This document shows positions 25,051-52,616 of a stretch of DNA of 64,000 bases, piece after piece (positions within the stretch are counted from its first letter, which is position 1; each line of letters begins with the position of its first letter). Below the pieces are notes generated by a model that saw nothing but the letters and a program-made list of their open reading frames with translations, was not told the DNA's origin and made no database searches. A program made the position numbers and the translations under genes. Origin of the DNA: an endosymbiont of Lamellibrachia barhami (GTDB lineage Bacteria; Pseudomonadota; Gammaproteobacteria; Chromatiales; Chromatiaceae); the NCBI RefSeq assembly GCF_011947365.2, contig NZ_JAAVSH020000001.1:3556492-3620491 (forward strand), read 5' to 3'.

Positions 25051-25114
25051 GATTTATCCCGCGCAAAAAACTAGAGATAGTACACCAGTGCGGGATGGGA
25101 TTCAGCGGGTAGGA

Positions 25115-25160
25115 GGCTAAAGGCTAAAGGCTAAAGGCTAAAGGCTAAAGGCTAAAGGCT
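25115..25160. repeat. Heptanucleotide tandem array (GGCTAAA), 6.6 copies
   Basis: Six perfect consecutive GGCTAAA units plus GGCT. It lies in the 339-base gap upstream of the PfkB kinase gene. Confidence 0.97.
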
Positions 25161-25293: not shown

Positions 25294-25344
25294 GCGACTA
25301 ACCGCAGTAACGACAGCGTTCGCCCAATCCGTTGGCACGACCTC

Positions 25345-25407
25345 CTTTCGCCTTTCTCCTTTCGCCTTTCTCCTTTCGCCTTTCTCCTTTTACCTTTCGC
25401 CTTTCGC
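25345..25407. repeat. Heptanucleotide array (CTTTCGC / CTTTCTC) running into gcvPB
   Basis: Nine heptads in register: alternating CTTTCGC and CTTTCTC for six units, one CTTTTAC, then two CTTTCGC. The TAA stop of gcvPB (25390-25392) is formed by the deviant CTTTTAC unit, and the last residues of GcvPB (KGER) are encoded by the array. Confidence 0.95.
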
Positions 25408-26847
25408 CTTCCATGCCAAATCCAGATCCCGGGCGGCCCGCACATCATCAAGCCGCCTCACCGGCAGATCATGGGGGGCAGACTTCACCTGCTCCGGATC
25501 ACTCTGCGCCTCATGCAGTATGGTTGTCATAATATCCACGAAGCGATCCAGCTCATCCTGCGCCTCGGTCTCGGTCGGCTCGATCAACAGGCACTCAGGC
25601 ACCAGCAGGGGAAAGTAGGTGGTGGGCGCATGCACACCGAAATCGAGCAGCCGCTTGGCAAAGTCCATGGTATTAACGCCCAGCTCCCGGGCCTGCCGCT
25701 TCAGGGTCAGGATAAATTCATGGCTGGCGCGCCGCTGCGGATAAGCGGCATCGAAACCGGCGTCGGTAAGGCGCTTCAGCAGATAGTTGGCGTTGAGGGT
25801 GGAGAACTCTGCCACCCGATGCATGCCGTCACGCCCCAGCATGCGGGCGTAGATATAGGCCCGCAGCAACACGCCTGCATTGCCGGCAAAGGCGGAGAGC
25901 CGCCCAATGCTCTCCGGCCGGTTATCTTCGGTCAGCCAGACATAATCCTCACCATCCTGTGCCACCATCGGCACCGGCAGATAGGGTTCCAGCCGTTCGC
26001 TCACCCCCACCGGACCGGCACCAGGGCCACCACCGCCGTGTGGCGTGGAGAAGGTCTTGTGCAGGTTCATGTGGATGACATCGAATCCCATATCGCCAGG
26101 ACGCACCTTACCGAGGATGGCATTGAGGTTGGCGCCATCGTAATAGAGCAGCCCGCCAGCCTCATGGACCAGACCGGCGATCTCTTTGATGCGACGCTCG
26201 AACACGCCCAATGTGGAAGGATTGGTGAGCATAATGCCTGCGGTCTGCGGCCCCAAAACACCTTTCAGTGCCTCGACATCGATATCGCCGTCCGCACCAG
26301 TGGGGATCTCCCGCACCTTGTAACCGCACATCACCGCCGAGGCGGGATTGGTGCCGTGGGCCGCGTCCGGCACCAGAATCTCGTCGCGGGCATCATCGCC
26401 CCTGGCATCGTGATAGGCGCGGATCATCGCCACCCCGGCAAACTCCCCCTGAGCGCCCGCTGCGGGTGAGAGTGAAACCGCAAACATGCCAGTCACCGCT
26501 TTGAGCATCTCCTGCAGATCGTACAGGCAACCCATGAAACCCTGGCTGTGAGTCTCCGGCGCCAAAGGATGGCGCGCAAGGAAACCGGGCAGCGAGGCAA
26601 GACTGTTGCTGGCCCGTGGGTTGTACTTCATGGTGCAGGAACCCAGCGGGTAGAAGTGGGTATCGATGGAGAAGTTCTTCTGCGAAAGCTGGGTGTAGTG
26701 GCGCACCACCTGCATCTCGGAGACCTCGGGCATCGACGCTGACTGACGGCGGCGAAACTGCGCCGGTATCCCCTCCAGATCAACCTGTTGTAGCGGCGCC
26801 TGGGCAGTTGCACGACGACCCGTGCGGCTTTTTTCAAAGATCAACAT
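25390..26847 (-). CDS. gcvPB: Glycine dehydrogenase (decarboxylating) subunit 2, GcvPB
   Basis: A 485-residue PLP-binding half of the split P-protein of the glycine cleavage system. The PLP lysine lies in [17 protein letters not shown] (Lys about residue 269); QPAAGAQGE-like [13 protein letters not shown] and [14 protein letters not shown] are family blocks. It forms an alpha2beta2 enzyme with GcvPA, encoded 7 bases upstream. The C-terminus ends inside a heptanucleotide array, so the last few residues (KGER) are repeat-derived. Confidence 0.96.
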
Positions 26848-39430: not shown

Positions 39431-40015
39431 ATGAATACAAAATCGCTGCGCCACGTGGTCCGCACCCGACGGCGCCAATTGAGCAACCAGACACACAAAG
39501 CCCACAGCCTGCAGATGAAACGCCTGGCTTCGGCGTATACAGCATTCAGACACAGCCACCGCATCGCTTTCTATTTTGCTGCTGACGGAGAGATGGACCC
39601 AGCCCCTTTGGTAAAGCACGCACGCCACTCCGGTAAGCGCTGCTTCTTCCCCGTCCTGCGCAACCGCCCATCGCGATCCCTTTGGTTCGCGGAGCATAAA
39701 ATAGAAGGTCGACTGAAAAACAATCGATTCGGAATCCCCGAACCTGCATCACACCATAAACATATTTCCATGCCCTGGGGGCTGGACCTGATCTTCGTGC
39801 CACTGGTTGCATTTGACATCCAAGGTAACCGACTAGGAATGGGAGGTGGCTTCTATGACCGCACACTCGCATTCAGAAAAAATCGTCATCACTGGCCCGG
39901 ACCAAAACTGGTTGGACTTGCCCATGAGTGCCAAAGGGTCGATGGCCTTCAGGCAAAACCGTGGGACATCCAACTCGATGCGATCATTACCGAGAAGAAG
40001 ATCTATTCATTGTAA
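39431..40015 (+). CDS. fau: 5-formyltetrahydrofolate cyclo-ligase
   Basis: A 194-residue enzyme that converts 5-formyl- to 5,10-methenyl-tetrahydrofolate using ATP. The C-terminal signature RLGMGGGFYDRTLAF is complete, as is VPLVAFDIQGNRLG. The 6S RNA-fau order (ygfA in E. coli) allows processing of 6S from a joint transcript. The ATG at 39431 begins NTKSLRHVVRTRRRQLS, the family's usual start. Confidence 0.94.
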   Translation: MNTKSLRHVVRTRRRQLSNQTHKAHSLQMKRLASAYTAFRHSHRIAFYFAADGEMDPAPLVKHARHSGKRCFFPVLRNRPSRSLWFAEHKIEGRLKNNRFGIPEPASHHKHISMPWGLDLIFVPLVAFDIQGNRLGMGGGFYDRTLAFRKNRHHWPGPKLVGLAHECQRVDGLQAKPWDIQLDAIITEKKIYSL

Positions 40016-40081
40016 CTTTTCAGCTCACTCCTGATTTATACATCACGACCAATGAGCGAAATGAAGAACTAAAATAGATGC

Positions 40082-40168
40082 AGGCCGGTTCAAGCGTAGC
40101 GGAACCGGCAATGCTCTACCCGCTTTCAGTGATTAAACGCCCGAGCCGCTACGCTTGATCGGGCCTAC
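40082..40168. repeat. REP-like inverted pair in the fau / histone-like gap
   Basis: GGCCGGTTC-AAGCGTAGCG-GAACCGGC (40083-40109) faces CCCGAGC-CGCTACGCTT-GATCGGG (40140-40162). The second has one arm mismatch. The remainder of the 40016-40411 gap is AT-rich leader for the next gene with no other recognised feature. Confidence 0.85.
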
Positions 40169-40411
40169 ATCCATGATGGACAGACAAACATCTTTGACCC
40201 GTATTCCGTTTACACTTTCCACATCGATAACATCCACTCGCAGGAATCCTCATCAATCAATCCTAGCAACGATAGTATCGTTCACTTACTCTACTTGAAT
40301 ACAAGCAACAGACTGTATTAAATAAGAAAAAACGTATTTATTCTGGATTTTTTTTCAAGCTGACTTATACTCAGTGCATCATATGGGGTAGATGTCTCTG
40401 GAGGACATGTT

Positions 40412-40807
40412 ATGGCGAAGAAAAAAACCGCCAAAAAGAAGGCCGCTGTAAAGCGTAAAGTTTCCACCACAAAGAAAGTAGCTGCCAAGAAAAAAGCATC
40501 TACCAGGAAAAAGTCGGCAGCAAAAAAGATCGTCTCAAAGAAAAAGGTAGTCACTAAGAAGAAGACAGTAAAGAAGAGGGCCTCCAAGAAAAAGGTTGCT
40601 GCCAAAAAGAAGACCGTAAAGAAGAGAGCCGCCAAGAAAAAGGTTGTTGCCAAAAAGAAGACAGTAAAGAAAAGAGCCGCCAAGAAAAAGGTTGTTGCCA
40701 AAAAGAAGACAGTAAAGAAAAGAGCCGCCAAGAAAAAGGTTGCTGCCAAGAAACAAGCAGCTCGGCCACGCAAGGTCACGCCACGCAAAAAGGTCACCCA
40801 AAAATAG
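40412..40807 (+). CDS. Histone H1-like Lys/Ala-rich protein
   Basis: A 131-residue protein made almost only of K, A, V, T and R, without a folded domain; it resembles the C-terminal tail of histone H1 and AlgP/Hc-like bacterial proteins. The central part is a tandem repeat of the 16-residue unit AKKKVVAKKKTVKKRA, more than three copies, also nearly identical as 48-base DNA repeats. GGAGG lies 7 bases before the ATG. It probably binds DNA or RNA through charge alone; copy number of the unit is likely to vary between strains. Confidence 0.88.
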   Translation: MAKKKTAKKKAAVKRKVSTTKKVAAKKKASTRKKSAAKKIVSKKKVVTKKKTVKKRASKKKVAAKKKTVKKRAAKKKVVAKKKTVKKRAAKKKVVAKKKTVKKRAAKKKVAAKKQAARPRKVTPRKKVTQK

Positions 40808-40828
40808 GGTCGATCTGATCACCACCTA

Positions 40829-40862
40829 AAAAAACGCCCCATGAATCATGGGGCGTTTTTTA
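40829..40862 (+). terminator. Bidirectional terminator between the histone-like gene and ilvA
   Basis: AAAAACGCCCCATG-AAT-CATGGGGCGTTTTT: a perfect palindrome with A and T runs on both sides, able to stop both convergent genes. Confidence 0.93.
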
Positions 40863-40882
40863 CTTCCCTGCAAAAAACCGCG

Positions 40883-42403
40883 TCAGTCCACACCCGCAAA
40901 GAGTTGATATGCCGGATTATCGCTCTCTTCCCAAAAGGTGTAACCCAGGTCTTTCAGCATTTTCCTGAAATCACCTTTTTCACCCACTGGAATCTGTATA
41001 CCCATCAGTACACGTCCATAGGCTGAACCGTGATTTCGATAGTGGAACAAACTGATGTTCCAGCGTTTGCCAATATTGGACAGAAAATAGAGTAATGCAC
41101 CAGGGCGCTCGGGAAATTCAAACCGCACCAGCATCTCGTTTTCAACACCCTTGGCATGGCCGCCCACCATATAGCGAATGTGCAGTTTAGCGGTTTCATT
41201 ATCGGTCATGTCGACAATGGGATAGGATTTCTTCTCGAACCTGGCGACCAACTCCTCTCTCTCCCGATCCCCGTCACTCAACTCCACACCGACGAATATC
41301 TGTGCAGTGCGGTCACTGGCATAACGATAGTTGAACTCAGTGATACTGCGTTTGCCTATTACTTTGCAAAACCGATGAAAGCTTCCCGGCCGCTCAGGAA
41401 TCTGCACTGCAAAAAGCGCCTCTCTTCTTTCGCCGAATTCCGCGCGTTCAGCAACATGGCGCAGACGGTCAAAATTGATATTGGCGCCGCTCTCTATGGC
41501 GATCAGATCGGTCCCTTTGATTCCTTCACGCTGCACATATTTTTTCAGACCCGCAACAGACAATGCACCGGCAGGCTCGGCAATCGTTCTCGTGTCATCA
41601 AAAACGTCCTTTATCGCAGCACATATCTCATCTGCATTGACCAGGATCACCTCATCCACAAGCTTGCGGGCCACACGAAAACTCTCTTTTCCTATCTGCC
41701 TGACCGCCACGCCATCTGCAAATATTCCCACCTGCTTAAGTTTGACCCGGCGCCCAGCCTCCATCGCCCGATAGAGCGTAGGCGCGTCATCCGGCTCAAC
41801 ACCGATAATCTTCACCTCGGGCCGTACATATTTAACATAGGACGCGATCCCCGCAATCAACCCGCCACCGCCCACCGGAACAAAGATTGCCAGCGGGGGC
41901 TCCGGATGCTGCCGCAACAACTCCATCCCAATCGTGCCCTGACCCGCAATCACCTCCGGATCATCAAAGGGATGAATGTAGGTCAGCCCCTTCTCCTCCG
42001 CCAACTTCTGGGAGTGCGCATAGGCTTCATCATAGGAGTCTCCGAACAATACAATCTTGGCACCAAGATTACGCACCGACTGTACTTTGATGGGCGGTGT
42101 CGTACGCGGCATAACAATAAGCGCCTGAATCTTCAGCTTGCGGGCCGACAGAGCAACACCCTGGGCATGATTACCGGCAGATGCAGCAATGATCCCCTTC
42201 TCCCTCGCCTCCGGCGAAAGACTCTGAATCTTGTTATAGGCCCCCCTCAACTTGAATGAGAATACAGGCTGCAGATCCTCCCGCTTCAAAAAGATCCGAT
42301 TCTCCATCCTTGCAGAGAGCAGCGGCGCATAATCCAGAGGCGTCTCATGCGCCACGTCGTAGACCCGCGCGCGGAGGATTTTTTCTATATAACGCTGTGG
42401 CAT
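40883..42403 (-). CDS. ilvA: Threonine ammonia-lyase, biosynthetic
   Basis: A 506-residue PLP enzyme making 2-oxobutanoate for isoleucine. The PLP lysine lies in VFSFKLRGAYNKI; the glycine-rich phosphate loop is VGGGGLIAGIASY. Two C-terminal ACT-like domains (FAVQIPERPGSFHRFCKVIG and VRFEFPERPGALLYFLSNIG) mark the isoleucine-feedback-regulated type. ATG 42403 gives a length close to E. coli IlvA (514). Confidence 0.96.
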   Translation of the reverse strand: MPQRYIEKILRARVYDVAHETPLDYAPLLSARMENRIFLKREDLQPVFSFKLRGAYNKIQSLSPEAREKGIIAASAGNHAQGVALSARKLKIQALIVMPRTTPPIKVQSVRNLGAKIVLFGDSYDEAYAHSQKLAEEKGLTYIHPFDDPEVIAGQGTIGMELLRQHPEPPLAIFVPVGGGGLIAGIASYVKYVRPEVKIIGVEPDDAPTLYRAMEAGRRVKLKQVGIFADGVAVRQIGKESFRVARKLVDEVILVNADEICAAIKDVFDDTRTIAEPAGALSVAGLKKYVQREGIKGTDLIAIESGANINFDRLRHVAERAEFGERREALFAVQIPERPGSFHRFCKVIGKRSITEFNYRYASDRTAQIFVGVELSDGDREREELVARFEKKSYPIVDMTDNETAKLHIRYMVGGHAKGVENEMLVRFEFPERPGALLYFLSNIGKRWNISLFHYRNHGSAYGRVLMGIQIPVGEKGDFRKMLKDLGYTFWEESDNPAYQLFAGVD

Positions 42404-42564
42404 TATTCTATTCCAATGTGAGATTGCCGCACCTGACATCAAAGAGGTGCATCGGTATGATAACCCCCAAAATCCGATAAACGTTAGATAATATCGACAA
42501 AGCAGGCAATCGGGCTTCTAATCCGAATCCCCAAGCTTGCAGTCGATAGCAAAGGAGTTAGCGC

Positions 42565-43224
42565 ATGAATGCAGACGAAATGAAAAAAATGGCCGCAGAG
42601 GCCGCGCTGGAGTATGTCGATGGCGGCATCGTCGGTGTGGGTACCGGTTCAACGGTCAACCATTTCATCGACTACCTGGCCACCATCAAGCATAAAATCG
42701 ATGGCGCGGTTTCAAGTTCCGAAGTTTCGACCGAACGCATGAAGAGCCACGGCATTCCGGTAATGGATCTTAACGTAGCGGGGGAGCTGGATATCTATGT
42801 GGATGGCGCAGATGAAGCGGATCACAATCTGGCGCTCATCAAGGGCGGTGGTGGCGCGCTGACCCGCGAGAAGATCATCGCGGGCGCCAGCAGAAAGTTT
42901 GTCTGCATCGCAGACGGCAGCAAACTGGTGGACATACTGGGCAAGTTCCCACTGCCGGTGGAGGTCATCCCCATGGCCCGCAGCCATGTGGCACGCCAGC
43001 TGGTCAAACTTGGCGGCACCCCGGTCTGGCGTGAAGACTTCATTACCGACAACGGAAATGTCATCCTGGATGTTCACAATCTGGAGATCATGAAACCCAT
43101 CGAGATGGAGAACCGCATCAACGCCATCGCCGGCGTGGTCACCACCGGTCTCTTTGCCATGCGTGGCGCTGATGTGTTGATCCTGGGCACCGAGGATGGC
43201 GTCAAGACAGTGCTGCCCAAATAA
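42565..43224 (+). CDS. rpiA: Ribose-5-phosphate isomerase A
   Basis: 219 residues, the length of E. coli RpiA. It interconverts ribose-5-P and ribulose-5-P. Motifs: [15 protein letters not shown] (phosphate loop), [25 protein letters not shown] (catalytic Asp and Glu) and [18 protein letters not shown] precedes the ATG. Divergent from ilvA. Confidence 0.97.
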
Positions 43225-43262
43225 GAGGGCCGAGGTTGATAGGGCCGAGGGCCGAGGATCTA
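43225..43262. repeat. GGGCCGA heptad-type repeat after rpiA
   Basis: Three copies of AGGGCCGAGG, two of them in direct tandem at seven-base spacing. The same word recurs at 46229, 46445, 46845 and 50096. Confidence 0.85.
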
Positions 43263-43273
43263 AATTGGGGTGG

Positions 43274-44066
43274 ATCTAAATTGGGGTCAGACTCGAATTA
43301 GTCACGTGTGCTCCTAGGTCTTCCTCTAGGCCTCGGTGCCGCACGCCGACCTGTTAACTTTTCAATCTTTTCACGAAAGCGGTCATTGCCCATCGCCCAG
43401 CCTTTGTTGGTTGATGCCCGAATAACCTCAAGATCTGATTTTCCGATACCTGCCTGAAAAAGCAGACAATATGCGGACTGCCTGTCAGCTTCACTATCTC
43501 CCAGATGACGGTACAAATCATGCGGCTTTAGCAGCTTGTTTATATTTCCAAAGGCATTACTGGCATAACTTGACCAAGGGTATTTTTGGGGATGGTCGAC
43601 CATTCCTGTACGCACTGGATTGAGTTCAATATAGCGCATACAGGTCAACAGATAGTGGTCGCTGTCGATAAGCGTAGCCTTATAACGTCCCTCCCATAAG
43701 GTGCCCGTACGTTTGTAACGGTAGTTGAAATATTGAACATATCTGCGGCCAACTGATTGCAGAGTCTTGGGAATGCTGACCTCTGCTTCAGGACTAGCCA
43801 GTAGATGCACATGATTTGTCATCAAGACATAGGCATGAACCGTGAGTTCATGGAGCTTTGCGGCCTCTTGCAGACAATCCAGATAGAAATGGTAGTCATC
43901 GCTTGCCGCAAAGATCGGCTCACGATTATTTCCCCGCTGGATGATGTGCTGAGCCTGACCTTTGACAAAGTAACGAGGAAGACGTGCCATGATATCTGCT
44001 TCCGTGCAAATAAAATAAAGAGTCTAACAGAGGTTCTGTCTTAATTCTTAATTCGAGTCTGACCCC
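43274..44066 (-). mobile_element. RAYT element with terminal inverted repeats
   Basis: GGGGTCAGACTCGAATTA (43274-43291) and its inverse AATTCGAGTCTGACCCC (44049-44065) bracket the Y1 transposase gene. The left end also has a doubled ATCTAAATTGGGGT word. The unit is about 790 bases, with no other gene inside. Confidence 0.8.
43298..43990 (-). CDS. REP-associated tyrosine transposase (RAYT, Y1 family)
   Basis: A 230-residue HUH single-strand transposase. The start MARLPRYFVKGQAQHIIQRGNN and the HUH motif VLMTNHVHLLASP are typical, with the catalytic tyrosine in the YVQYFNYRYKRTGTLWEGRYK helix. The C-terminal part RYIELNPVRTGMVDHPQKYPWSSY marks the RAYT group. The gene appears intact. Such proteins act on REP-type palindromes; whether this one mobilises the CGCTACGCTT family or only its own GGGGTC-ended units is unknown. 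Confidence 0.93.
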   Translation of the reverse strand: MARLPRYFVKGQAQHIIQRGNNREPIFAASDDYHFYLDCLQEAAKLHELTVHAYVLMTNHVHLLASPEAEVSIPKTLQSVGRRYVQYFNYRYKRTGTLWEGRYKATLIDSDHYLLTCMRYIELNPVRTGMVDHPQKYPWSSYASNAFGNINKLLKPHDLYRHLGDSEADRQSAYCLLFQAGIGKSDLEVIRASTNKGWAMGNDRFREKIEKLTGRRAAPRPRGRPRSTRD

Positions 44067-44121
44067 ATTAGTCTTGGGTTTGCCTCTTTCTTTCAGGGGG
44101 CCGTGTAGCTATGGGGCAAGC

Positions 44122-44968
44122 ATCGAAGTAGGGTGAGAATACTACCCGCCTCATCCCTCTCACAGAGAACAAGCCGTACAGTGGACCACGTATACGGCTC
44201 CGCAAACCAGGTATCTGAATGCTTTGGGGCAAATACTAATGAGTACTGGCCATATCCACCAGCACAACTCCTCACGAAGCCAGCGGTTTTGGCATGGCAA
44301 AACTGGCTAAGGTTTGACCGCCAACTATGCATCGGACAAACTTAAACGTTGGCTTTGTAGCGCCTTGCTTCAACCTTCGGTACAACCGTTCGGCTTCTTC
44401 CATATTTCAGTTGCGGATGCGTGATCGCCGTCGTATTTGTGTACTTCGTTCAGTTACGTATTGCTCTTCGCATCTCATGCCAGCTTTTGGCTGTCACAAG
44501 CCCACTGAACCTCCGTCAGTGGTCATTCCGGTTTTCTCCTCCACACTGTTACCAGGCTTCACAGGCCGGAACTTCATCACTACTACGAGCTCATCTGCCA
44601 CACCTCCACACTTAAACATCTTGGTCTCCACTCTTGATAGTGAGCCTTGAAAACAAGGACTGTGAGCTTCCCCGTTACTACAGCTCCCGGTAAGCAGCAT
44701 GCATCCTGCAACACACCACAGGCCTGATGACCATTATTGGGCTTCGCCCTATTTCTGAAGCTGACCCACCTGTTGTGCCGACCAGGTTCACTTGCGTTAT
44801 GTAATAAAGCACTTCCTATGGCTTCCTTCAGACCCAGCCGTTACCAGCTACGCCCTTGCCAATCGGATTGTCTTCCCTCGATCGGGGTGACGCCTCTTCT
44901 TCAGAGGGCGGGTTTGCCTACTTCGCAGAACGACAAAAACAGAGACGAGGCCCCGTCTTCTTCCTCAC
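44122..44968 (-). mobile_element. Group II intron relic lacking reverse transcriptase
   Basis: A region of about 850 bases without credible genes, but with group II intron features on the reverse strand. Near 44968 is GTGAG, a possible 5' end. The interior has CGAAGTAGGCAAACCCG, CTGAAGGAAGCC, and the CAAGAGTGGAGACCAAGATG type of sequence seen before intron ORFs. A domain-V-like hairpin GAGCCGTATACG...GTACGGC (about 44201-44173), a domain-VI-like stem GGATGAGGCGGGTAG... and a 3' end CCCTACTTCGAT near 44122 follow. No reverse-transcriptase frame is present. The domain V match is imperfect (a few extra bases), so it may be inactive. It begins 11 bases after the porin stop, where a terminator would be expected. 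Confidence 0.6.
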
Positions 44969-44979
44969 TAAAGTAAGAC

Positions 44980-45948
44980 TTAGAAGTTGTGGCTCAGCTG
45001 CAGAGAGATAACGCTGCTGTCGGTGCTTGGTGCACCAGCTGCGTCGTCTACGTCACGAGCATTGTAGAGAACCTGTGCATCGGTACGCTTGCTGAAGCTG
45101 AACTGGTAGCCAATAGCATAAGTATCGAAGTCGGTACCTGCGGTGTTGTCGAAGTCAGCAGAACCGTACATGCCCTTGATGCGGTGCATGCCCATGTCGT
45201 ATGCGCCAGACAGCTGGTAGGTTGCCTTGTCGTCATTGGCAACGCCGCCGATGTCGGAACGCGTCTCGTAAACACCGGTCACGCTGATGTTGTTCCAACC
45301 CAAAACGCCGCCGCCGATGCGGAACTGAGTCTCGTTCTCAGCAGGTGCGCCGAAGTTGTCTTCATCAAGCTGCTCGTAAGCGATGGCACCGTAGAAAGGG
45401 CCGTTGCTGTACATACCAGCGATGGAGTAAGCATCCTGGAAGTCTTCGGTGGCCAGAGTCTGAACGACTGCACCAGCAAGGGTGAGACCGGAGAAAGAGG
45501 GAGAGATGTATGCAATGGCACCATCAACGCGACGATCCATGAACAGGTTGGTGTGGTTGCCGCCCTGATCGTAGTCAGCAGCGGTATCTGCGAACAGATC
45601 CAGCTTGCCGGTGGACATCTTCAGAGGAGTGTCGTGACGACCGGCAACAGCGGTACCGAAACCACCAGCCAAGCCGACGAAAGCGTTACGACCAGACCAG
45701 TTGAATGCAGAACCTGCAGCCATGCCGAACTCCATCTGGTAGATGGCTTTCAGGCCGTTGCCCAGATCTTCGGAACCCTTGATACCAAGACGGGAAGCTT
45801 GATCCTGCATGCCCCAGGAATCAAGACCATTGTCGACATCCCACTTGTCAGAAGCGACACGAACCTTACCGTAGATGGTGGAATCAGCCATGGCAGCCGC
45901 AGGGGCAATCAGAGCAGCAGCAATTGCGAAAGAAAGGATTTTCTTCAT
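44980..45948 (-). CDS. Gram-negative trimeric porin
   Basis: A 322-residue outer-membrane porin. A clear signal peptide (MKKILSFAIAAALIAPAAAMA-DS) is followed by amphipathic beta strands with the porin opening STIYGKVRVAS, SRLGIKGSEDLGNGLKAIYQMEFG and GTAVAGRHDTPLK. The protein ends in a phenylalanine (LSHNF), the signal for BAM insertion. Codon choice is strongly biased, as in abundant proteins. ATG 45948 has TTGGAG upstream; earlier starts would precede the signal peptide. Confidence 0.95.
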   Translation of the reverse strand: MKKILSFAIAAALIAPAAAMADSTIYGKVRVASDKWDVDNGLDSWGMQDQASRLGIKGSEDLGNGLKAIYQMEFGMAAGSAFNWSGRNAFVGLAGGFGTAVAGRHDTPLKMSTGKLDLFADTAADYDQGGNHTNLFMDRRVDGAIAYISPSFSGLTLAGAVVQTLATEDFQDAYSIAGMYSNGPFYGAIAYEQLDEDNFGAPAENETQFRIGGGVLGWNNISVTGVYETRSDIGGVANDDKATYQLSGAYDMGMHRIKGMYGSADFDNTAGTDFDTYAIGYQFSFSKRTDAQVLYNARDVDDAAGAPSTDSSVISLQLSHNF

Positions 45949-45998
45949 TTTTAAAAAACTCCAATGAGTTAGAGATGAATTCTGTACGTTCGCTGGCA

Positions 45999-46027
45999 AT
46001 ACTAGATAAGCCAGCGCTGCATTGCAA
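45999..46027 (-). promoter_or_regulatory. Sigma-70 promoter of the porin gene
   Basis: Reverse strand: TTGCAA (46027-46022), 17-base spacer, TAGTAT (46004-45999). Start near 45992 gives a leader of about 44 bases. Confidence 0.65.
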
Positions 46028-46228
46028 GTCTTTTTTGTAAAAAAATCACATGTGGTAATTTTGTTGCAAAAAAAATACACCTCACATAGGACAGGCAATT
46101 AAAATGCGGCAATTCCGTTAGTTACCATCATTTCCTCGAATTCCCAATAAAATTCAACCAACAACATTTAACCATCTGCAGGTAAATTATTGTCTCAGAG
46201 ACTCGAAATATAGGAGTAGTGACATAAA

Positions 46229-46318
46229 GAAAACAGGGCCGAGGATTTAAGGGCCAAGGGATAAGGGATAAGGTGGCGGTCCTCGGCCCTAGGCCCTATC
46301 AACCTCGGCCCTGTTTTT
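46229..46318. repeat. Inverted repeat of the GGGCCGAGG family
   Basis: AAACAGGGCCGAGG and its inverse CCTCGGCCCTGTTT flank decayed heptads (AGGGATA twice in tandem). It lies between the porin promoter and the tRNA terminator. Nothing else is recognised in the 46028-46330 gap. Confidence 0.8.
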
Positions 46319-46330
46319 TGGCCCTAAAAC

Positions 46331-46356
46331 AAAAAACCCGCCGAAGCGGGTTTTTT
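46331..46356 (-). terminator. Terminator of tRNA-Gln
   Basis: AAAAAACCCGC-CGAA-GCGGGTTTTTT; on the reverse strand CCCGCTTCGGCGGG followed by six T, directly after the tRNA. Confidence 0.92.
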
Positions 46357-46360
46357 ATTT

Positions 46361-46434
46361 TGGCTGGGGATAGAGGACTCGAACCTCTACAAACGGAGTC
46401 AGAGTCCGTTGTCCTGCCATTAGACGAATCCCCA
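46361..46434 (-). tRNA. tRNA-Gln (anticodon CUG)
   Basis: 74 bases with encoded CCA. Acceptor TGGGGAT pairs with ATCCCCA, the D arm is TCTAATGGCAGGA, the anticodon arm ACGGA-CTCTGAC-TCCGT reads CUG, and the T arm is AGAGGTTCGAGTCCTCT. Confidence 0.97.
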
Positions 46435-46442
46435 ATTTTCTT

Positions 46443-46875
46443 TAGGGCCTAGGGCCGAGGATCTCCACCTTGGCCCTCTCTACCGGCACTTCGCTCAAAA
46501 TAAACGATTAGCCCGTATACCATCTTTGAAATCTGTATGATTTCTTCGGATTTTTCAAGGCCGATTTCACGATCAATCAGATCTGACTCGATGCCGATCA
46601 GAATTTGTGTCCAGGCCTCATAGCTGGAAGCCTTTGCAATCCGAAGGAAGTGAATGCGCTCTTTGACTGATTCCCGCCCATAACCTTCAGCTATGTTTGA
46701 GGCTATGGAAAGCGCCGATCTTCCCAACTGATCCCTGAAGCCAAAATTGGCACAGCCACCAATCAGTTTGTAAATATCTGCTGAGAGCCGACAAGCCCTC
46801 TTCCATACATCGAGGCTTATCAGGGCATCCATGCCCGCCTCCTAGGCCCTCGGCCCTTAAAACCTCGGCCCTATT
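46443..46875 (-). mobile_element. Four-helix-bundle gene cassette bracketed by GGGCCGAGG heptad repeats
   Basis: The gene at 46449-46832 is flanked by AGGGCCTAGGGCCGAGGA (46444) on one side and, inverted, CCTAGGCCCTCGGCCC and CCTCGGCCCT (46841-46873) on the other. The repeat contributes to the Shine-Dalgarno (AGGAGG adjoining GGGCCT) at one end and encodes the last residues and TAG at the other. The unit looks like an insertion between tRNA-Gln and rpsI. Confidence 0.55.
46449..46832 (-). CDS. Four-helix-bundle protein (S23 / Avd-like family)
   Basis: A 127-residue helical protein of the S23 / Avd-like four-helix-bundle family: LDVWKRACRLSADIYKLI, FRDQLGRSALSIASNIAEGYGRES, FLRIAKASSYEAWTQILIGIESDLI and SKMVYGLIVYF are its four helices. 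Related proteins are encoded in 23S rRNA intervening sequences and act as RNA/RT accessory proteins in retroelements; the free-standing ones have no known function. The last residues (GGDPRP) and stop come from the flanking repeat. AGGAGG lies five bases before the ATG. Confidence 0.9.
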   Translation of the reverse strand: MDALISLDVWKRACRLSADIYKLIGGCANFGFRDQLGRSALSIASNIAEGYGRESVKERIHFLRIAKASSYEAWTQILIGIESDLIDREIGLEKSEEIIQISKMVYGLIVYFERSAGREGQGGDPRP

Positions 46876-46876
46876 T

Positions 46877-47266
46877 TTATCGTTTGGAGAACTGAGGACG
46901 CTTGCGCGCCTTGTGCAGACCGACTTTCTTACGCTCGACCTCACGGGCATCACGAGTCAGGAATCCGGCTTTGCGCAGACCAACATGCAGCGACTCGTCA
47001 TATAGATCAAGGGCACGCGCTATGCCGTGACGAATGGCGCCTGCCTGACCAGTGGTGCCGCCACCTTTTACGGTGACCTTGATATCAACCTTGTCGAGTG
47101 TTGCGGTGACGTCCAGCGGCTGACGCACGACCATACGCGCTGTTTCACGGCCAAAATATTCGTCCAGAGGACGATTATTGACAACGATGCTGCCGCTGCC
47201 GGAGGTCAGGAAGACCCGGGCTGCTGAGCTTTTGCGGCGGCCGGTGCTGTAATGAATATCTGCCAT
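46877..47266 (-). CDS. rpsI: 30S ribosomal protein uS9
   Basis: 129 residues, a standard S9: [15 protein letters not shown] at the start, [19 protein letters not shown], and the basic C-terminal tail ending RKRPQFSKR that reaches P-site tRNA. Follows rplM by 25 bases in the usual rplM-rpsI operon. Confidence 0.98.
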
Positions 47267-47291
47267 CGGTTTTACCTGATGAAAATGGTGA

Positions 47292-47720
47292 TCAGATGTC
47301 CAGCGGCTGAGGCTGCTGGGCCTGATGAGTGTGTTCGGGACCTACAAAGACGCGCAGCTTCTTGAACATGGCGCGACCCAGAGGATTCTTAGGCATCATG
47401 CCCTTGACGGCATGCTGAATCACCCGCTCCGGCGCCTTGTCCAACAGCTTTTCCAGGCTGATCGACTTGAGGTTGCCTATATAACCGGTGTGATGGTGAT
47501 ACATCTTGTCCGACATCTTGTTGCCGGTCACATGGATCTTCTCCGCGTTGATTACCACGATGTAATCCCCGGTATCCACATGAGGGGTATATTCAGGCTT
47601 ATGCTTACCGCGCAGGCGGCGCGCAATTTCGCTGGAGAGGCGACCGAGGGTCTTGTCGGTTGCGTCCACGAGGTACCAGGTGCGGCGTACCTCAGCCGGT
47701 TTTGCACTAACGGTTGTCAT
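47292..47720 (-). CDS. rplM: 50S ribosomal protein uL13
   Basis: 142 residues as in E. coli L13: [41 protein letters not shown] and [19 protein letters not shown] 47720 has TTGGAG upstream; an earlier frame start at 47735 is not needed. L13 represses its own operon in E. coli by binding the mRNA leader; a hairpin in that position is noted separately. Confidence 0.98.
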
Positions 47721-47763
47721 ACCGAGTCGCTCCAATGGAGAACTATTATCGTCCGAAAAAGAC

Positions 47764-47810
47764 GGCGAATGGTACCGGATGATCCGACAGGAAACAAGAC
47801 CTCATTCGCC
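47764..47810 (-). promoter_or_regulatory. Leader hairpin upstream of rplM
   Basis: On the reverse strand GGCGAATG (47810-47803) can pair with CATTCGCC (47771-47764), with an inner CCGGATCATCCGG-like fold, 43 bases before the rplM start. A candidate site for L13 feedback control (inference). Confidence 0.45.
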
Positions 47811-47815
47811 GCCGG

Positions 47816-47914
47816 CAAAAAAAAAGCGCAACGGAGGACGTTGCGCTTAAATATAACCACCATTTTAGGAGGATGGAGGAGTACTGACACTCGCCATCGG
47901 CAGGTAATCAGTAT
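47816..47914 (-). ncRNA. Candidate small RNA with CUCC motifs upstream of rplM
   Basis: A complete promoter-to-terminator unit of about 100 bases with no reading frame. It starts near 47914 and ends in a strong terminator: AAGCGCAACG-TCCTC-CGTTGCGCTT followed by nine T (hairpin 47848-47824). The terminator loop (UCCUC) and the upstream single-stranded part (ACTCCTCCATCCTCCT) expose at least three CUCC/CCUCC words complementary to Shine-Dalgarno sequences. Such loops are the targeting sites of several known trans-acting small RNAs. It could also act as an attenuator of rplM-rpsI, which is downstream on the same strand. Confidence 0.6.
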
Positions 47915-47920
47915 GTTAGA

Positions 47921-47949
47921 ATTATCTGATATTATTATTGATATGTCAA
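47921..47949 (-). promoter_or_regulatory. Near-consensus sigma-70 promoter
   Basis: Reverse strand: TTGACA (47949-47944), exactly 17 bases, GATAAT (47926-47921), in an AT-rich setting. One base from consensus. It drives the candidate small RNA and, by read-through, possibly rplM-rpsI. Confidence 0.88.
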
Positions 47950-48050
47950 GCTCAGCGAGCAACCCGGCTAACATCTCTTTGGACTTTCCCCTCCGGGTCT
48001 GAAAAAATTGCGCCCTTCCCCGACAACACAATAAACCTTAATAAGAAGAG

Positions 48051-49019
48051 ATGCTGATCGACTCACTTGCCATTCTCGTCGGACTTGCCATCCTGGTTTG
48101 GGGCGCCGATCGCTTTGTCATCGGCGCCGCCGCTCTGGCCAGCAACCTGGGTGTGTCAGCGATGCTGATCGGGCTCACCATCGTCGGCTTCGGCACATCC
48201 GCACCGGAGATACTGGTCTCGGTCGTCTCCTCGCTCGATGGCAATCCCGGCCTCGCGATCGGTAACGCACTGGGTTCGAATATCGCCAATATCGGCCTGA
48301 TCCTTGGCACTACCGCGCTTATCGTCCCTCTGACCGTCCACTCCAGCGTATTAAAGAGGGAGTACCCCCTGCTGCTCGGCGTGACCGGCCTCAGCCTGCT
48401 GCTCATGCTGGACGGGGAACTGAACCAGCTCGACGGCGTGATCCTGATTATCGTCTTGATCGCCGTGCTCGGCTGGATGATCCACGCCGCTAAAACCGGC
48501 TCTCCAACCGACCCGATAGCCGACGAGTTCGATGCCGAAATCCCTCACGACATGCCCACCCGCCGTGCGATCTTCTGGCTGATACTCGGGCTTATCTGCC
48601 TGCTGGTGAGTTCACGCATGCTGGTCTGGGGGGCAGTCAACATCGCCACTGCGTTCGGCATCAGCGATCTGGTGATCGGCCTTACCATCGTCGCCCTGGG
48701 CACCAGCCTGCCCGAGCTGGCGGCAAGCATTGCCAGCGCCCTCAAGGGAGAGGACGATCTTGCCATCGGCAACATCATCGGTTCCAACCTCTATAATCTG
48801 TTGGCGGTCCTGAGCCTGCCGGGCCTGATTGCACCGGGCGCCTTTGCCCCAGCCGCACTCTACCGGGATCAACCCATGATGATTGGGCTGACCCTTGCCC
48901 TCTTTGCCATGGGCTATGGTTTTGGGAAACTGAAAGGGCAGATCAACCGCATCGAAGGCGTTCTGCTGCTGCTCGCTTTCATCGGCTATCAGTCAGTGCT
49001 GTTTTTTACCTTAAGTTAG
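48051..49019 (+). CDS. Calcium/sodium antiporter (YrbG type)
   Basis: A 322-residue inner-membrane exchanger with about ten helices in two homologous halves. Each half has the alpha-repeat signature: LIGLTIVGFGTSAPEILVSVVSS...GNALGSNIANIGLI and VIGLTIVALGTSLPELAASIASALKGEDDLAIGNIIGSNLYNLL. The acidic residues of the GTSxPE motifs coordinate the cation. It precedes kdsD as in the E. coli yrbG-kdsD-kdsC-lpt cluster. Confidence 0.95.
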   Translation: MLIDSLAILVGLAILVWGADRFVIGAAALASNLGVSAMLIGLTIVGFGTSAPEILVSVVSSLDGNPGLAIGNALGSNIANIGLILGTTALIVPLTVHSSVLKREYPLLLGVTGLSLLLMLDGELNQLDGVILIIVLIAVLGWMIHAAKTGSPTDPIADEFDAEIPHDMPTRRAIFWLILGLICLLVSSRMLVWGAVNIATAFGISDLVIGLTIVALGTSLPELAASIASALKGEDDLAIGNIIGSNLYNLLAVLSLPGLIAPGAFAPAALYRDQPMMIGLTLALFAMGYGFGKLKGQINRIEGVLLLLAFIGYQSVLFFTLS

Positions 49020-49030
49020 ACTATTTTGCC

Positions 49031-49057
49031 TGATCCGCTACGCTTGATCATGCCTAC
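49031..49057. repeat. REP-like palindrome, single copy
   Basis: TGATC-CGCTACGCTT-GATCA then TGCCTACG, between the antiporter and kdsD. Shorter arms than other copies. Confidence 0.75.
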
Positions 49058-49093
49058 GAACGGCTGTTTTTTACGTTTAATCGAGAGAGATCA

Positions 49094-50092
49094 ATGAGAC
49101 AAGGCAAACCGATCACCCAGGAAGAGGCCGGTAGACTCCGAAGCCTGGGACTGGCAGTGATCGAAACCGAGGCTGCTGCCATCTCATCGCTGGCAGCGCG
49201 CATCGACGACGATTTCGCCCGCGCCTGCAGCTATATGCTTGAGTGTCCCGGTCGCATAGTGGTCATCGGCATGGGAAAATCAGGGCACATCGGCAGCAAG
49301 ATCGCCGCCACCCTCGCCAGTACCGGCAGCCCCGCTTTTTTCGTCCATCCCGGTGAAGCCAGCCATGGCGATCTCGGCATGATCACCAGCGGTGATGTGG
49401 TGCTTGCACTCTCGAATTCAGGGGAGACCGGCGAACTGCTGACCATCCTGCCATTGATCAAACGTCTCGGTGTGCCACTCATCAGCATGACCGGCAACCC
49501 GGAATCCACACTGGCATGCGAGGCGGAAGTCAGCATCGATGTCAGTGTGGAGAAGGAGGCCTGTCCCCTGGGTCTCGCCCCCACCTCCAGCACCACCGCT
49601 GCACTGGCAATGGGTGACGCCCTGGCGATCGCCCTGCTTGAGACGCGGGGATTCACCGCCAAGGACTTCGCCCTCTCGCATCCCGGCGGCAGCCTCGGAC
49701 GGCGCCTGCTGCTGCACATCGGTGATATCATGCACACTGGGGATGCGATTCCAAAGGTCTCCATCGGTGCCAGCCTGAACACAGCACTGATCGAGATGTC
49801 ATCCAAAAGCCTCGGCATGACTGCCGTGGTTGACGGGCAGGGAGCGTTGGCGGGAATCTACACCGACGGGGATCTGCGCCGCACCCTCGACCACAAAGTG
49901 AACATTCACGCAGCGGGTGTGTCGGAGGTGATGACCGTAAACTGCAAAACGGTGGCGCCGGAGATGCTCGCTGCCGAAGCCCTGCAGCTGATGGAAGAGA
50001 ACAAGATCAGCGGCCTGCTGGTGGTAAACGGGCAAGGTGAACTGGTCGGCGCATTCAACATGCACGACCTGCTGCGTGCCGGTGTTATGTAA
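49094..50092 (+). CDS. kdsD: Arabinose-5-phosphate isomerase
   Basis: A 332-residue enzyme making D-arabinose-5-P for Kdo, the inner LPS sugar. The SIS domain (about 40-180) has VVIGMGKSGHIGSKIAATLASTGSPAFFVHPGEASHGDLGM; two CBS domains (about 210-325) follow. GAGAGA precedes the ATG. Confidence 0.96.
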   Translation: MRQGKPITQEEAGRLRSLGLAVIETEAAAISSLAARIDDDFARACSYMLECPGRIVVIGMGKSGHIGSKIAATLASTGSPAFFVHPGEASHGDLGMITSGDVVLALSNSGETGELLTILPLIKRLGVPLISMTGNPESTLACEAEVSIDVSVEKEACPLGLAPTSSTTAALAMGDALAIALLETRGFTAKDFALSHPGGSLGRRLLLHIGDIMHTGDAIPKVSIGASLNTALIEMSSKSLGMTAVVDGQGALAGIYTDGDLRRTLDHKVNIHAAGVSEVMTVNCKTVAPEMLAAEALQLMEENKISGLLVVNGQGELVGAFNMHDLLRAGVM

Positions 50093-50095
50093 GAC

Positions 50096-50285
50096 AGGGC
50101 CGAGGTTTTTAGGGCCTAGGGCCGAGGAAGGGAAAGGAGGTACAACTTACCTTTGGTCCTTGGTCCTTGGTCCTTGGTCCTTGGTCCTTGGTCCTTGGTC
50201 CTTGGTCCTTGGTCCTTGGTCCTTGGTCCTTGGTCCTTGGTCCTTGGTCCTTGGCCCTCGGCCCTAATAACCTTGGCCCTAATAA
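50096..50285. repeat. Heptanucleotide tandem array: 14 perfect TTGGTCC units with GGGCCGAGG flanks
   Basis: TTGGTCC is repeated exactly 14 times without a change (50153-50250), then TTGGCCC and TCGGCCC. The array is flanked by AGGGCCGAGG and AGGGCCTAGGGCCGAGG on the left (50097-50127) and CCTTGGCCCTAATAA words on the right. It fills the kdsD-kdsC gap and ends 16 bases before the kdsC start. Confidence 0.98.
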
Positions 50286-50300
50286 AATCGGAGAGAGAAA

Positions 50301-50822
50301 GTGCAGGACATCCAGGAAAAGGCTCGCAACATCAAGCTGGTCATATTCGATGTCGACGGTGTGCTCACCGACGGCAGTCTGTTCCTCGGCGATGATGGAC
50401 AGGAGTACAAGGCGTTCAACTCCCGGGATGGCCACGGCATGAAGATGCTGCAGGCCAGCGGTGTTGAGATCGGCATCATCACCGGCCGCTCCTCGGAAGT
50501 GGTGCGCATCCGCATGGAGAGCCTGGGGATCAAACACGTCCACCAGGGCAAGCTGGATAAGCTGCCCACCTATCTCCAGTTGCGGGATCAGCTCGGCCTG
50601 AGCGATGAAGATGTCGCCTACGTGGGAGACGACGTGGTCGATCTGCCCATCATGCGCCGCGTCGGCCTCGCTATTGCGGTCAATGACGCACACCCCTTTG
50701 TGCTCCAGCATGCCCACTGGCAAACCCCGCATGCGGGGGGCCGTAGCGCCGGGCGGGATGTCTGCGAACTACTGATGGATGCTCAGGGCAATCTTCAGTC
50801 TGCGCTGGAAAACTATCTTTAA
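50301..50822 (+). CDS. kdsC: 3-deoxy-D-manno-octulosonate 8-phosphate phosphatase
   Basis: A 173-residue HAD phosphatase of Kdo synthesis. The catalytic DxD lies in VIFDVDGVLTDG, with ITGRSSEVVRIR and the metal-binding DVAYVGDDVVDLPIM. The start is GTG at 50301 with GAGAGAAA upstream. A heptanucleotide array separates it from kdsD, so length changes there could alter its expression. Confidence 0.96.
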   Translation: MQDIQEKARNIKLVIFDVDGVLTDGSLFLGDDGQEYKAFNSRDGHGMKMLQASGVEIGIITGRSSEVVRIRMESLGIKHVHQGKLDKLPTYLQLRDQLGLSDEDVAYVGDDVVDLPIMRRVGLAIAVNDAHPFVLQHAHWQTPHAGGRSAGRDVCELLMDAQGNLQSALENYL

Positions 50823-50834
50823 GCCGTTACGCTG

Positions 50835-51398
50835 GTGAATCGTCATACGCTCTTCATCGTCCTGTTCACTACCGCCATTGCGGGACTGAGTTGGTGGCTG
50901 GCCGAGATAACAGAACCGAAACAGCAGCGCCAGCAGGTCGCAGGACACCATCCAGACTACTACGCCGAAGACCTCACGATCACCACCTACAGTGAGGCAG
51001 GCACCCCAAAACACCGCCTGGTAACGGAGCGTTTGGTCCACTTCAGGGACGACGACAGCGCCGAATTGGACAATCCACATCTGTGGATATTCGATCCAGC
51101 CACCCCGCCCTGGAAGATGCGCGCCAAGCAGGCACTCATCACCAACAAAGGCGAAAACATCTTCCTTCCGGGCAAGGTATTCATTGACCGGGAGGGGCAG
51201 GGGAAAAACCGCCCCTATCACATCATCACCTTCGATCTGAAGGTACATCCCAAACTCTCCTACGCCGAAACTGATGGCGCATTTCGTCTCGACAGCCGCC
51301 GGGACTGGGTCACCTCCATCGGCATGCAGGGCTGGTTCAAAGAACCCGCCAGAATCAAACTACTATCCGAGGTACGAAGCCGTTATGAAACCCAATAA
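50835..51398 (+). CDS. lptC: LPS export protein LptC
   Basis: A 187-residue inner-membrane-anchored periplasmic protein passing LPS from LptBFG to LptA. A single N-terminal helix (RHTLFIVLFTTAIAGLSWWLA) and an OstA-like beta-jellyroll (YYAEDLTITTYSEAGTPKHRLVTERLVHF) are visible. The start is GTG at 50835. It overlaps lptA by 14 bases. Confidence 0.93.
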   Translation: MNRHTLFIVLFTTAIAGLSWWLAEITEPKQQRQQVAGHHPDYYAEDLTITTYSEAGTPKHRLVTERLVHFRDDDSAELDNPHLWIFDPATPPWKMRAKQALITNKGENIFLPGKVFIDREGQGKNRPYHIITFDLKVHPKLSYAETDGAFRLDSRRDWVTSIGMQGWFKEPARIKLLSEVRSRYETQ

Positions 51399-51894
51399 CC
51401 GGCTCTTGAGTCTGCTGCTCGCCCTCTCCCTGTCCATGCCGGCCCTCAGCCTCGCACTCAGCACCGATAAAGATCAGCCGATGTATCTGGAGGCGGACAG
51501 CGTGGACATCGATGACGCCAAAGGCGTCAGCATCTACGAAGGCAACGTGGTCATCACCCAGGGCAGCACCAAACTGTGGGCCGACAAGATATGGGTCTAT
51601 CGTGTCGATGGCGAAACAGAAAAGGTCTTCGCCATCGGCAAGCCGGTGCGCTTTCAGCAGCGCATGGACGACAGCGACGAGGTGGCCCGCGGACAGGCGC
51701 TGCGGGCCGAATACTATGCCAGGAAGGATGAGATCTATTTGATCGGGGAGGCGCTGCTGCAACAGGGCAAGGATCAGTTTCGCAGCGACCGCATCACCTA
51801 CCTGCGCGGAAAATCCCAGGTCAAGGCGGGCGCCAGCGCCGCAGGCAAAAAGCGGGTTCGGGTGGTCATAGAACCCAGGAAAGAACAACAATGA
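51385..51894 (+). CDS. lptA: LPS transport periplasmic protein LptA
   Basis: A 169-residue periplasmic bridge protein. A signal peptide (ending LSLA-LST) is followed by the OstA jellyroll: [39 protein letters not shown] basic C-terminus ([12 protein letters not shown]) follows. The stop overlaps the lptB start (ATGA). Confidence 0.95.
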
Positions 51895-52616
51895 CCCAGT
51901 TGCTCGCCACCAACCTGGAGAAGCAGTATCGCGGCCGCAAAGTGGTTGACCGGATTTCGCTGGAGGTCGACAAGGGCGAGGTGGTCGGACTGCTCGGTCC
52001 CAACGGCGCAGGCAAGACCACCAGTTTCTACATTATCGTGGGTCTGATCCCGGCGGACGGCGGCAGCGTCATGGTCGACGGACGTGAGGTCACCGATCTG
52101 CCTATGCACAGCCGGGCCCGGCTCGGCATCGGCTATCTCGCCCAGGAGCCCTCGATCTTTCGGCGGCTCTCTGTGGAAAACAACATTCTGGCCATCCTGG
52201 AGACCCGCAAATCCCTGAAAAAGGCGGAACGCCAGGAGATCTGCGACAGACTGCTCGATGAGTTCGGTATCGCCCATCTGCGGGATAATATGGCCATGAG
52301 CCTCTCCGGCGGCGAACGGCGGCGACTGGAGATCGCCCGTGCACTCTCCATCGAACCCCGTTTCGTGCTGCTGGACGAACCCTTCGCCGGGGTTGACCCC
52401 CTCGCGGTGCTGGAGATCAAAAAGATCATTCTGCACCTGAAAGAGCGAGGCATCGGCGTACTGATCACCGACCATAATGTGCGGGAGACCCTCGACATCT
52501 GCAATCGCGCCTACATCATCAACGCAGGCAGCGTGCTGGCGGAGGGGACGCCGCAGGATATTCTTGTAAACCCGGAAGTTCGCTCTGTCTACCTGGGAGA
52601 GCATTTTTCCATGTAA
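51891..52616 (+). CDS. lptB: LPS export ABC transporter ATPase LptB
   Basis: A 241-residue ATPase powering LPS extraction. Walker A is GPNGAGKTT, the Q-loop is [17 protein letters not shown], the signature is [15 protein letters not shown], Walker B is [13 protein letters not shown] and the switch is [10 protein letters not shown]. Length equals E. coli LptB. lptF/lptG are not in the window. Confidence 0.98.

Follow-up and report, generated by a model that had tools for sequence, protein, structure and literature searches.

An S23 four-helix-bundle gene between inverted heptad arms very probably forms a small transposon-like element

An S23 gene together with the two inverted heptad arms that enclose it very probably forms a small transposon-like element (about 450-650 bp) without a recognised transposase. 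The arms themselves, their period, their usually inverted layout, the insertion of gene and arms as a unit, gene-free insertion, inversion and a fast turnover of copy number and unit are shown directly by the comparisons below. That the S23 protein is the driving protein is inferred, in the absence of biochemistry and of any obvious catalytic part; we favour this reading by a modest margin, and the whole statement, the element plus an S23-driven mechanism, is likewise one that we prefer without being able to press it.

We analysed a stretch of 64,000 nucleotides (the window) in which an S23 gene lies between tRNA-Gln and rpsI (Table 1). Profile searches matched its product to PF05635 (93.7 bits; curated cut-off 33.8) and TIGR02436 (95.6 bits; cut-off 24), and PF05635 was the only Pfam domain found. 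The AlphaFold model was confident (mean pLDDT 92.8) and consisted of four helices. A Foldseek search with this model returned 2gsc (Xcc0516) as the top match with a probability of 1.00, and 2rld (BT_0352) as well; the next-ranked fold was Avd of the Bordetella phage DGR (4dwl), with a TM score of 0.72 by query length, a weak E-value of 0.08 and an identity of 11%. The scores above cut-off and the 2gsc-type bundle place the ORF in the S23 / 23S_rRNA_IVP family. A second S23 gene of the same genome, at C1:133629, has AGGATAA-type arms on one side and the inverse on the other.

Table 1. Positions of the S23 gene, its arms and the gene-free heptad repeats in the window
Feature	Position	Strand	Basis or remark
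S23 four-helix-bundle gene (PF05635, TIGR02436, NF008912)	46449-46832	-	127 aa; profile matches, AlphaFold model, fold search
Arm at 3' end of the S23 gene, GGGCCTA-GGGCCGA-GG, holding the stop codon	46444-46460	+	alignment to G005 (empty) and to four filled congeners
Arm at 5' end of the S23 gene, inverted copy, edge overlapping the Shine-Dalgarno sequence	46842-46873	-	sequence
Gene-free inverted heptad pair, interval between porin gene and tRNA-Gln	46236-46317		mapped in three of the six genomes
Gene-free inverted heptad pair with (TTGGTCC)15 array	50096-50290		repeat and genus comparison
Gene-free inverted pair of a second heptad family: AGGCTAA (25114-25160) and CCTTTCG (25344-25410)	25114-25410		
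Gene-free GGGCCGAGG array directly after ORF 42565-43224, beside RAYT element	43227-43257	+	

The arm heptad at this gene is GGGCCNA. The word GGGCCGAGG was found 13 times in the window against 1.15 expected, a count reached in none of 100 shuffles. The copy at one end of the ORF, at 46452, is on the plus strand and those at the opposite end, at 46848 and 46863, are on the minus strand, so that the arms are inverted. The first-pass annotation, which was made from the sequence alone, had claimed that inverted repeat-type sequence brackets an S23/Avd-like gene and that gene-free copies occur at 43225, 46229 and 50096; both claims held, the copies being at 43227-43257, 46236-46311 and 50097-50264, with one further lone copy at 34656. 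It had also stated that the repeat contributes to the Shine-Dalgarno sequence and encodes the C-terminus and stop, and the stop TAG (46449-46451) indeed falls within GGGCCTAGGG of one arm, and the Shine-Dalgarno AGGAGG (46838-46843) overlaps the edge of the opposite arm. The site of the 5'-end arm carries period-7 CCCTCGGCCCTCGGCCCT in two congeners (G003 and G004). The claim for a specific word required correction: the word is not general, because the unit varies from locus to locus. GGGCCGAGG was rejected as a genome-wide signature since the word is clustered in the window and, as a single word across the whole genome, was not enriched (67 matches against 60 for the pattern read backwards); it is thus not the general signal. 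The general feature is a period of 7 rather than any particular word.

Several other repeats were observed in the window. The gene-free GGGCCGAGG array is adjoined by a Y1/RAYT-like transposase gene (43298-43990, minus strand), which scored 76.1 bits against NF047646, slightly below the cut-off of 80. This gene is accompanied by GGATCTAAATTGGGGT as a 16-bp tandem and by inverted GGGGTCAGACTCGAATTA-type ends. Beside this RAYT element, positions 44686-44850 (minus strand) matched Rfam group-II-D1D4-3 at 36.3 bits (gathering threshold 32), probably an intron remnant. A 48-bp tandem repeat of 4.6 copies, AAG/AAA-rich and by its look a lysine-rich tail, lies at 40538-40757.

We surveyed S23 loci from four sources, which do not make up a random sample. 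Among relatives, 18 of 55 genomes matched, and 30 of 31 rows yielded loci; in the class, 80 of 370 genomes matched, and only the top 30 loci were taken. Viral contigs (IMG/VR) added 29 loci, and named genomes from a wide range of phyla added the top 80 of 448. The 168 loci, two of which had no profile match at E 1e-4 (L039 and L041), gave 184 gene places, reduced to 179 by removal of identical cores and to 173 by the requirement of 300 bp on both sides; stop-containing copies were scored unmended. Arrays were called at a score of at least 12, and control windows were taken from each locus at a distance of more than 900 bp. A comparison of homologue flanks had been proposed in the first-pass annotation, and heptad arrays were far above control: of the 173 unique genes, 58 had a period-7 array in the upstream 300-bp flank, 65 in the downstream flank and 37 in both, compared with 68 of 1870 control windows. 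Lags of 3-6 and 9-13 gave 0 or 1 per side and lag 8 gave seven upstream, seven downstream and six on both sides, while lag 14, a multiple of 7, gave 41, 56 and 20, respectively. When one locus was taken per 60%-identity cluster (n = 95), period-7 arrays were found upstream in 37, downstream in 36 and on both sides in 23 (control, 37 of 1005), and 50 of the 95 loci had an array on at least one side (Fisher p 2e-37, flanks versus control windows). The corresponding figures for 50%-identity clusters (n = 46) were 12, 15 and 9, with 15 of 501 control windows (p 6e-14). At a looser threshold (score 9, lag 7 or 8), 133 of 176 loci had at least one flanking array and 76 had arrays in both flanks; 30 of the 176, six Pedobacter genes included, lacked arrays as well as inverted words of 12.

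The two arms of a locus usually matched each other in inverted orientation. The longest inverted word common to both flanks was at least 11 in 110 of 176 S23 genes as against 10 of 476 control intervals, and the same test in direct orientation was positive for 17 of 176 genes. Among 61 two-armed loci, arm similarity was 0.794 inverted and 0.496 direct; the inverted match beat the direct one in 52 loci, and the direct match was equal or better in the remaining nine. On the gene strand, the upstream arm had the higher purine content (mean 0.65 versus 0.41; richer in 44 of the 61 loci). The unit word differed from locus to locus, with period and inverted layout kept. Similarity to the arms of other loci was 0.504, and the conserved terminal inverted sequence that would define a TIR transposon or MITE was accordingly not met.

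The period was also distributed by lineage to some extent. In a FastTree phylogeny of 173 rows (protein segments shorter than 75 aa excluded), the nearest labelled neighbour was also of period 8 for seven of the 11 proteins with period-8 arms; label shuffles gave a mean of 0.97, and none of 2000 reached seven. Clustering was weaker when the label was counted as changes on the tree (9 versus a shuffled mean of 10.8; as low in 7 of 500). One period-8 group unites Empedobacter and Cloacimonadota, but this grouping is suggestive only, because a single genome supplied both Empedobacter copies and the tree rests on few columns. Protein identity correlated only weakly with unit sequence (Mantel r 0.067; 11 of 1000 permutations). 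We therefore rejected strict co-evolution of protein and unit; with so low a coefficient, the unit drifts fast. As a separate observation, a pair of S23 genes in one Empedobacter falsenii locus (L109) is accompanied by several long period-8 arrays, an arrangement that looks like nested or tandem elements.

Filled and empty sites were compared within the genus. The cassette at the tRNA-Gln/rpsI site is present in five of six genomes, one copy having a stop. The first-pass annotation had proposed a search for an empty site here, and one was found in the remaining congener (G005), with a 44-nt unrelated spacer and no heptads. All six genomes have an S23 gene at the rnf site (some with stops), but it comes in three alleles that differ in the unit carried by both arms. 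Inspection by eye showed agreement of the sequences as far as the outer arm ends, and arms and gene were apparently swapped together. Array copy number at one site was 3, 6 and 10 units.

Plasmids provided further sites. S23 genes were found on 31 plasmid records, 29 of them cyanobacterial; ten of the 31, from the upper ranking, were examined first. Both arms had period 7 in seven of these ten copies (by script, score of at least 9) and period 8 in one (Gemmatirosa), and the two-sided arms of the Picosynechococcus and Stanieria copies were seen by eye only. Annotated copies lie, among other places, in nrdB/nrdA, cas6/cas4 (twice) and cmr2/cmr3 intervals and in conjugation gene clusters. A TrbI-side site is filled in two Trichormus plasmids and one Scytonema plasmid and empty in three plasmids at 97.5-97.8% identity, and three more show the same two-piece match; no heptad is present at the empty conjugative-plasmid sites. 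The empty site reads AAAAA-GTAATTAAC and the filled site AAAAA-GTAAT-element-GTAATTAAC, and a Nostoc record (C052_E) has a remnant with one-sided arms at this site. In a Nostoc operon, for which seven of the ten best-matching records were used (H39, H40 and H41 were left out), one junction is filled in three plasmids and empty in four, one of which is filled at the next junction. The filled and empty sites on cyanobacterial plasmids of about 97% identity and in the congener at tRNA-Gln/rpsI thus show that gene and arms insert as a unit.

Gene-free copies insert as well: in Nostoc N6, a 182-bp gene-free pair of the same heptad interrupts the S23 ORF without evident duplication. Stanieria PCC 7437 retains arm sequence at the site of the full NIES-3757 element. 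Target duplication was inconsistent, with a 5-7-bp direct repeat GTAAT(T)A at one plasmid site and none at the N6 insertion, and a duplication of constant length was not found at the two insertion sites compared. In phage records, a tblastn search with one query detected no S23; IMG/VR, however, supplied the 29 viral loci mentioned above, and two further viral scans yielded one S23 locus each, both on contigs already in the set.

Inversion was seen at three gene-free pairs, where the flanks stay in place in the congeners compared. At the 25.1-kb site, G003 and G004 have the inner segment in opposite orientations (minus-strand match of 96.9% over 160 bp), and at the 50.1-kb site it is inverted between G000, G001 and G005 on the one hand and G003 and G004 on the other (93-98% over 45 bp). 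At the 46.2-kb site, the inner segment is reversed in G004 relative to G000 and G001 (94% over 35 bp for G001 versus G004).

We then compared array content between genomes with and without S23, using the first 20 kb (or less) of contig 1 rather than random places. The 40 S23-carrying genomes were hand-picked, mostly for few contigs, from the 80 in the class; the 40 without a match came from the searches of relatives and class, half of them picked by contig number. The S23-carrying genomes had 14 period-7 arrays in 10 of the 40 (707 kb), whereas those without S23 had none in 670 kb (Fisher p 0.001). Other periods were balanced (S23-carrying versus without: period 6, 6 versus 6; period 9, 5 versus 5), and period 8 gave three arrays, all in one S23-carrying genome, versus none. 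Several arrays were close to contig ends; with the first 1000 bases of each contig excluded, nine arrays in six of 40 genomes remained versus none (p 0.026). In the organism's own family, S23-carrying genomes had 11 arrays in 262 kb, from three of ten genomes, and those without a match had none in 98 kb (six genomes, all also in the 40-genome set).

Gene-free inverted heptad pairs are dispersed in genomes with S23, and within the genus there are far more gene-free arrays than S23 genes. Arrays located over 900 bp from an S23 gene resembled the local S23 arm (0.692) more than the arms of other loci (0.529), and this held in 26 of 33 loci (p 2e-6). Counts of AAAGGNN/CAGGTNN arrays were 139/20 in G000, 125/31 in G002, 123/28 in G003, 131/6 in G004, 67/138 in G001 and 16/160 in G005, with backward-read controls of 0-24 for the AAAGGNN and 0 for the CAGGTNN pattern. 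The CAGGT-rich extreme, G005, has a sole S23 gene with AGGTGAC arms; G001 is an exception, as it has many CAGGTNN arrays, yet its two S23 genes have AAAGGTG and GGGCC arms. GGGCC arrays are present in G005 although the GGGCC-type S23 is absent, which could reflect loss of the gene with the arrays left behind; a passive model allows this equally. Apart from these comparisons, one 1.5-Mb genome (G319) gave 11 PF05635 matches, seven at an identical 34.4 bits, possibly near-identical copies from a recent burst.

The element resembles several known systems without coinciding with any. The intervening sequences (IVSs) of 23S rRNA genes share its protein family and inverted flanks; the Coxiella IVS has a tandem heptamer upstream of its S23 gene (PMC4990558), and in CPR rRNA genes the S23 family spans several insertion sites, some shared-site insertions being shorter and ORF-less (PMC11270868). 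Unlike an IVS, the present element is found outside rRNA genes, here in the tRNA-Gln/rpsI interval and at other loci between protein genes, and has dispersed gene-free relatives; an Rfam scan of window positions 40000-52000 found no rRNA, so that location inside a 23S gene was not met. Intergenic period-7 arrays like ours are known as the heptameric repeats of Xanthomonas and Nostoc, with 70 convergent pairs in Xcc and 75 in Xac and no general mobile-element link (Rehm 2015; PMC4692102), and as the TAACTGA repeats of Beggiatoaceae, for which horizontal transfer was suggested with no evident mechanism (MacGregor 2015; PMC4679880). The present arrays meet the description of intergenic tandem arrays with a unit of 7. 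The terms 'helix bundle' and '23S' do not occur in the main texts of either paper, nor 'S23' in that of PMC4679880, and we found no paper linking S23 to heptads in the literature searched, which left out most subscription papers and all preprints.

The first-pass annotation had compared the arrangement with RAYT/REP pairs. Both arrangements have a gene flanked by inverted repeats of which other copies are scattered without it, and dispersed gene-free copies of the flanking repeat are indeed found for the S23 arms. RAYT is a Y1 HUH transposase with a fixed-sequence palindrome, whereas the S23 protein is a helical bundle whose gene has arms that keep their period but vary in sequence, and the window protein, matching PF05635 only, does not meet the criterion of a Y1 (HUH) domain. 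The comparison therefore holds for behaviour only, since S23 is no Y1 transposase. MITEs and TIR transposons likewise have short inverted ends and gene-free derivatives, but the gene in the present element does not encode a DDE transposase, the ends vary in sequence, and target duplication was inconsistent. DGR Avd shares the fold at 11% identity, and a resemblance of PF05635 to Avd has been described (PMC10053308).

As to mechanism, S23 would bind the arms as DNA, with approximately one four-helix bundle per heptad, although no binding data exist; spacing rather than sequence would then be read, because each heptad would hold about one bundle. Xcc0516, the solved S23 relative, reportedly forms a homopentameric ring. 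By holding two inverted arms together, S23 may promote slippage, inversion and copying of the enclosed segment, and copies would enter new intergenic or intercistronic sites via host replication and recombination enzymes. Gene-free pairs would be passengers mobilised in trans, as REPs are by RAYT. The strongest pointer to S23 as the driver, itself an inference, is that arrays occurred only in S23-carrying genomes of the sample. The suggestion in the first-pass annotation of a four-helix-bundle protein acting on or carried by heptanucleotide repeats was thus borne out plainly for 'carried by'; 'acting on', together with ownership of a dispersed repeat, has indirect support only, without biochemistry, from the confinement of arrays to S23 genomes of the sample, their likeness to local arms and the insertion of a gene-free pair.

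Of the alternatives, an RNA-level element survives best, though we consider it unlikely. Here, the arms would form a stem in the transcript, RNase III would remove the insert, the arms would be retained because the operon mRNA is thereby spared, and S23 would bind RNA. In its favour, 23S rRNA IVSs encode S23, and RNase III excises the Coxiella IVS, in which S23p is preceded by three tandem heptamers (PMC4990558); seven of nine annotated plasmid copies lie in sense between co-directional genes; and Avd, the nearest further fold, is part of the DGR ribonucleoprotein. Against it, G-U and A-C arm mismatches are balanced (22 loci versus 22, p 0.92; 52 loci with a concordance of at least 0.6), and there is therefore no sign of selection for an RNA stem, for which a G-U excess would be expected on the sense strand. 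In addition, the other two annotated plasmid copies run antisense to the genes on either side, and inversion and gene-free insertion are changes in DNA.

Passive hitch-hiking, in which arrays arise by replication slippage and S23 spreads by homologous recombination between existing arrays, is very unlikely. It would account for the fast variation in array copy number at one site, the excess of gene-free arrays over S23 genes in the genus and the GGGCC arrays of G005 without that S23. It is opposed by the absence of period-7 arrays from the 40 genomes without S23, by the heptad-free empty conjugative-plasmid sites, and by the involvement of periods 7 and 8 alone with the better match of inverted arms. 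Equally improbable, though no systematic enzyme search was made, is that the S23 cassette and the gene-free pairs are both passengers that an unrelated transposase or recombinase moves in trans: elements this small are usually mobilised in trans and the window S23 protein has no other Pfam domain, but the arms offer no fixed sequence for a transposase to recognise and array presence tracks S23 presence.

We thus retain the S23-driven element as the preferred reading. The element itself is in our view a previously unrecognised, transposon-like one with gene-free passengers, S23 as its driver remaining inferred. A bolder reading, which taken as a whole we hold to be rather less probable than its failure, is that PF05635 is the working part of mobile elements with period-defined ends (7, and 8 in some lineages); that the protein counts spacing and drives array growth, inversion and insertion in trans; and that it is the common source of heptamers in Proteobacteria, Cyanobacteria and Bacteroidetes, as well as of the intervening sequences with S23 in rRNA genes and possibly of DGR Avd.

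The S23 family is recurrently found near CRISPR-cas genes (PMC3936711, PMC10910872), and three of our loci (L338, L342 and L345) lie between cas genes of cyanobacterial plasmids (cas6/cas4 twice, cas10/cmr2-cmr3). Because of these three plasmid copies, the element may bear on the CRISPR-cas association, and S23 copies between cas genes could explain the family's reported CRISPR link. A very widespread family of unknown function, present in many bacterial phyla, gains a genetic context and a testable role; the heptamer repeats of Xanthomonas, Nostoc and Beggiatoaceae gain a possible carrier; and the S23 intervening sequences of rRNA genes are placed in a wider class of elements. If the reading is true, ends defined by period and free of a set sequence would be a new principle among mobile elements.
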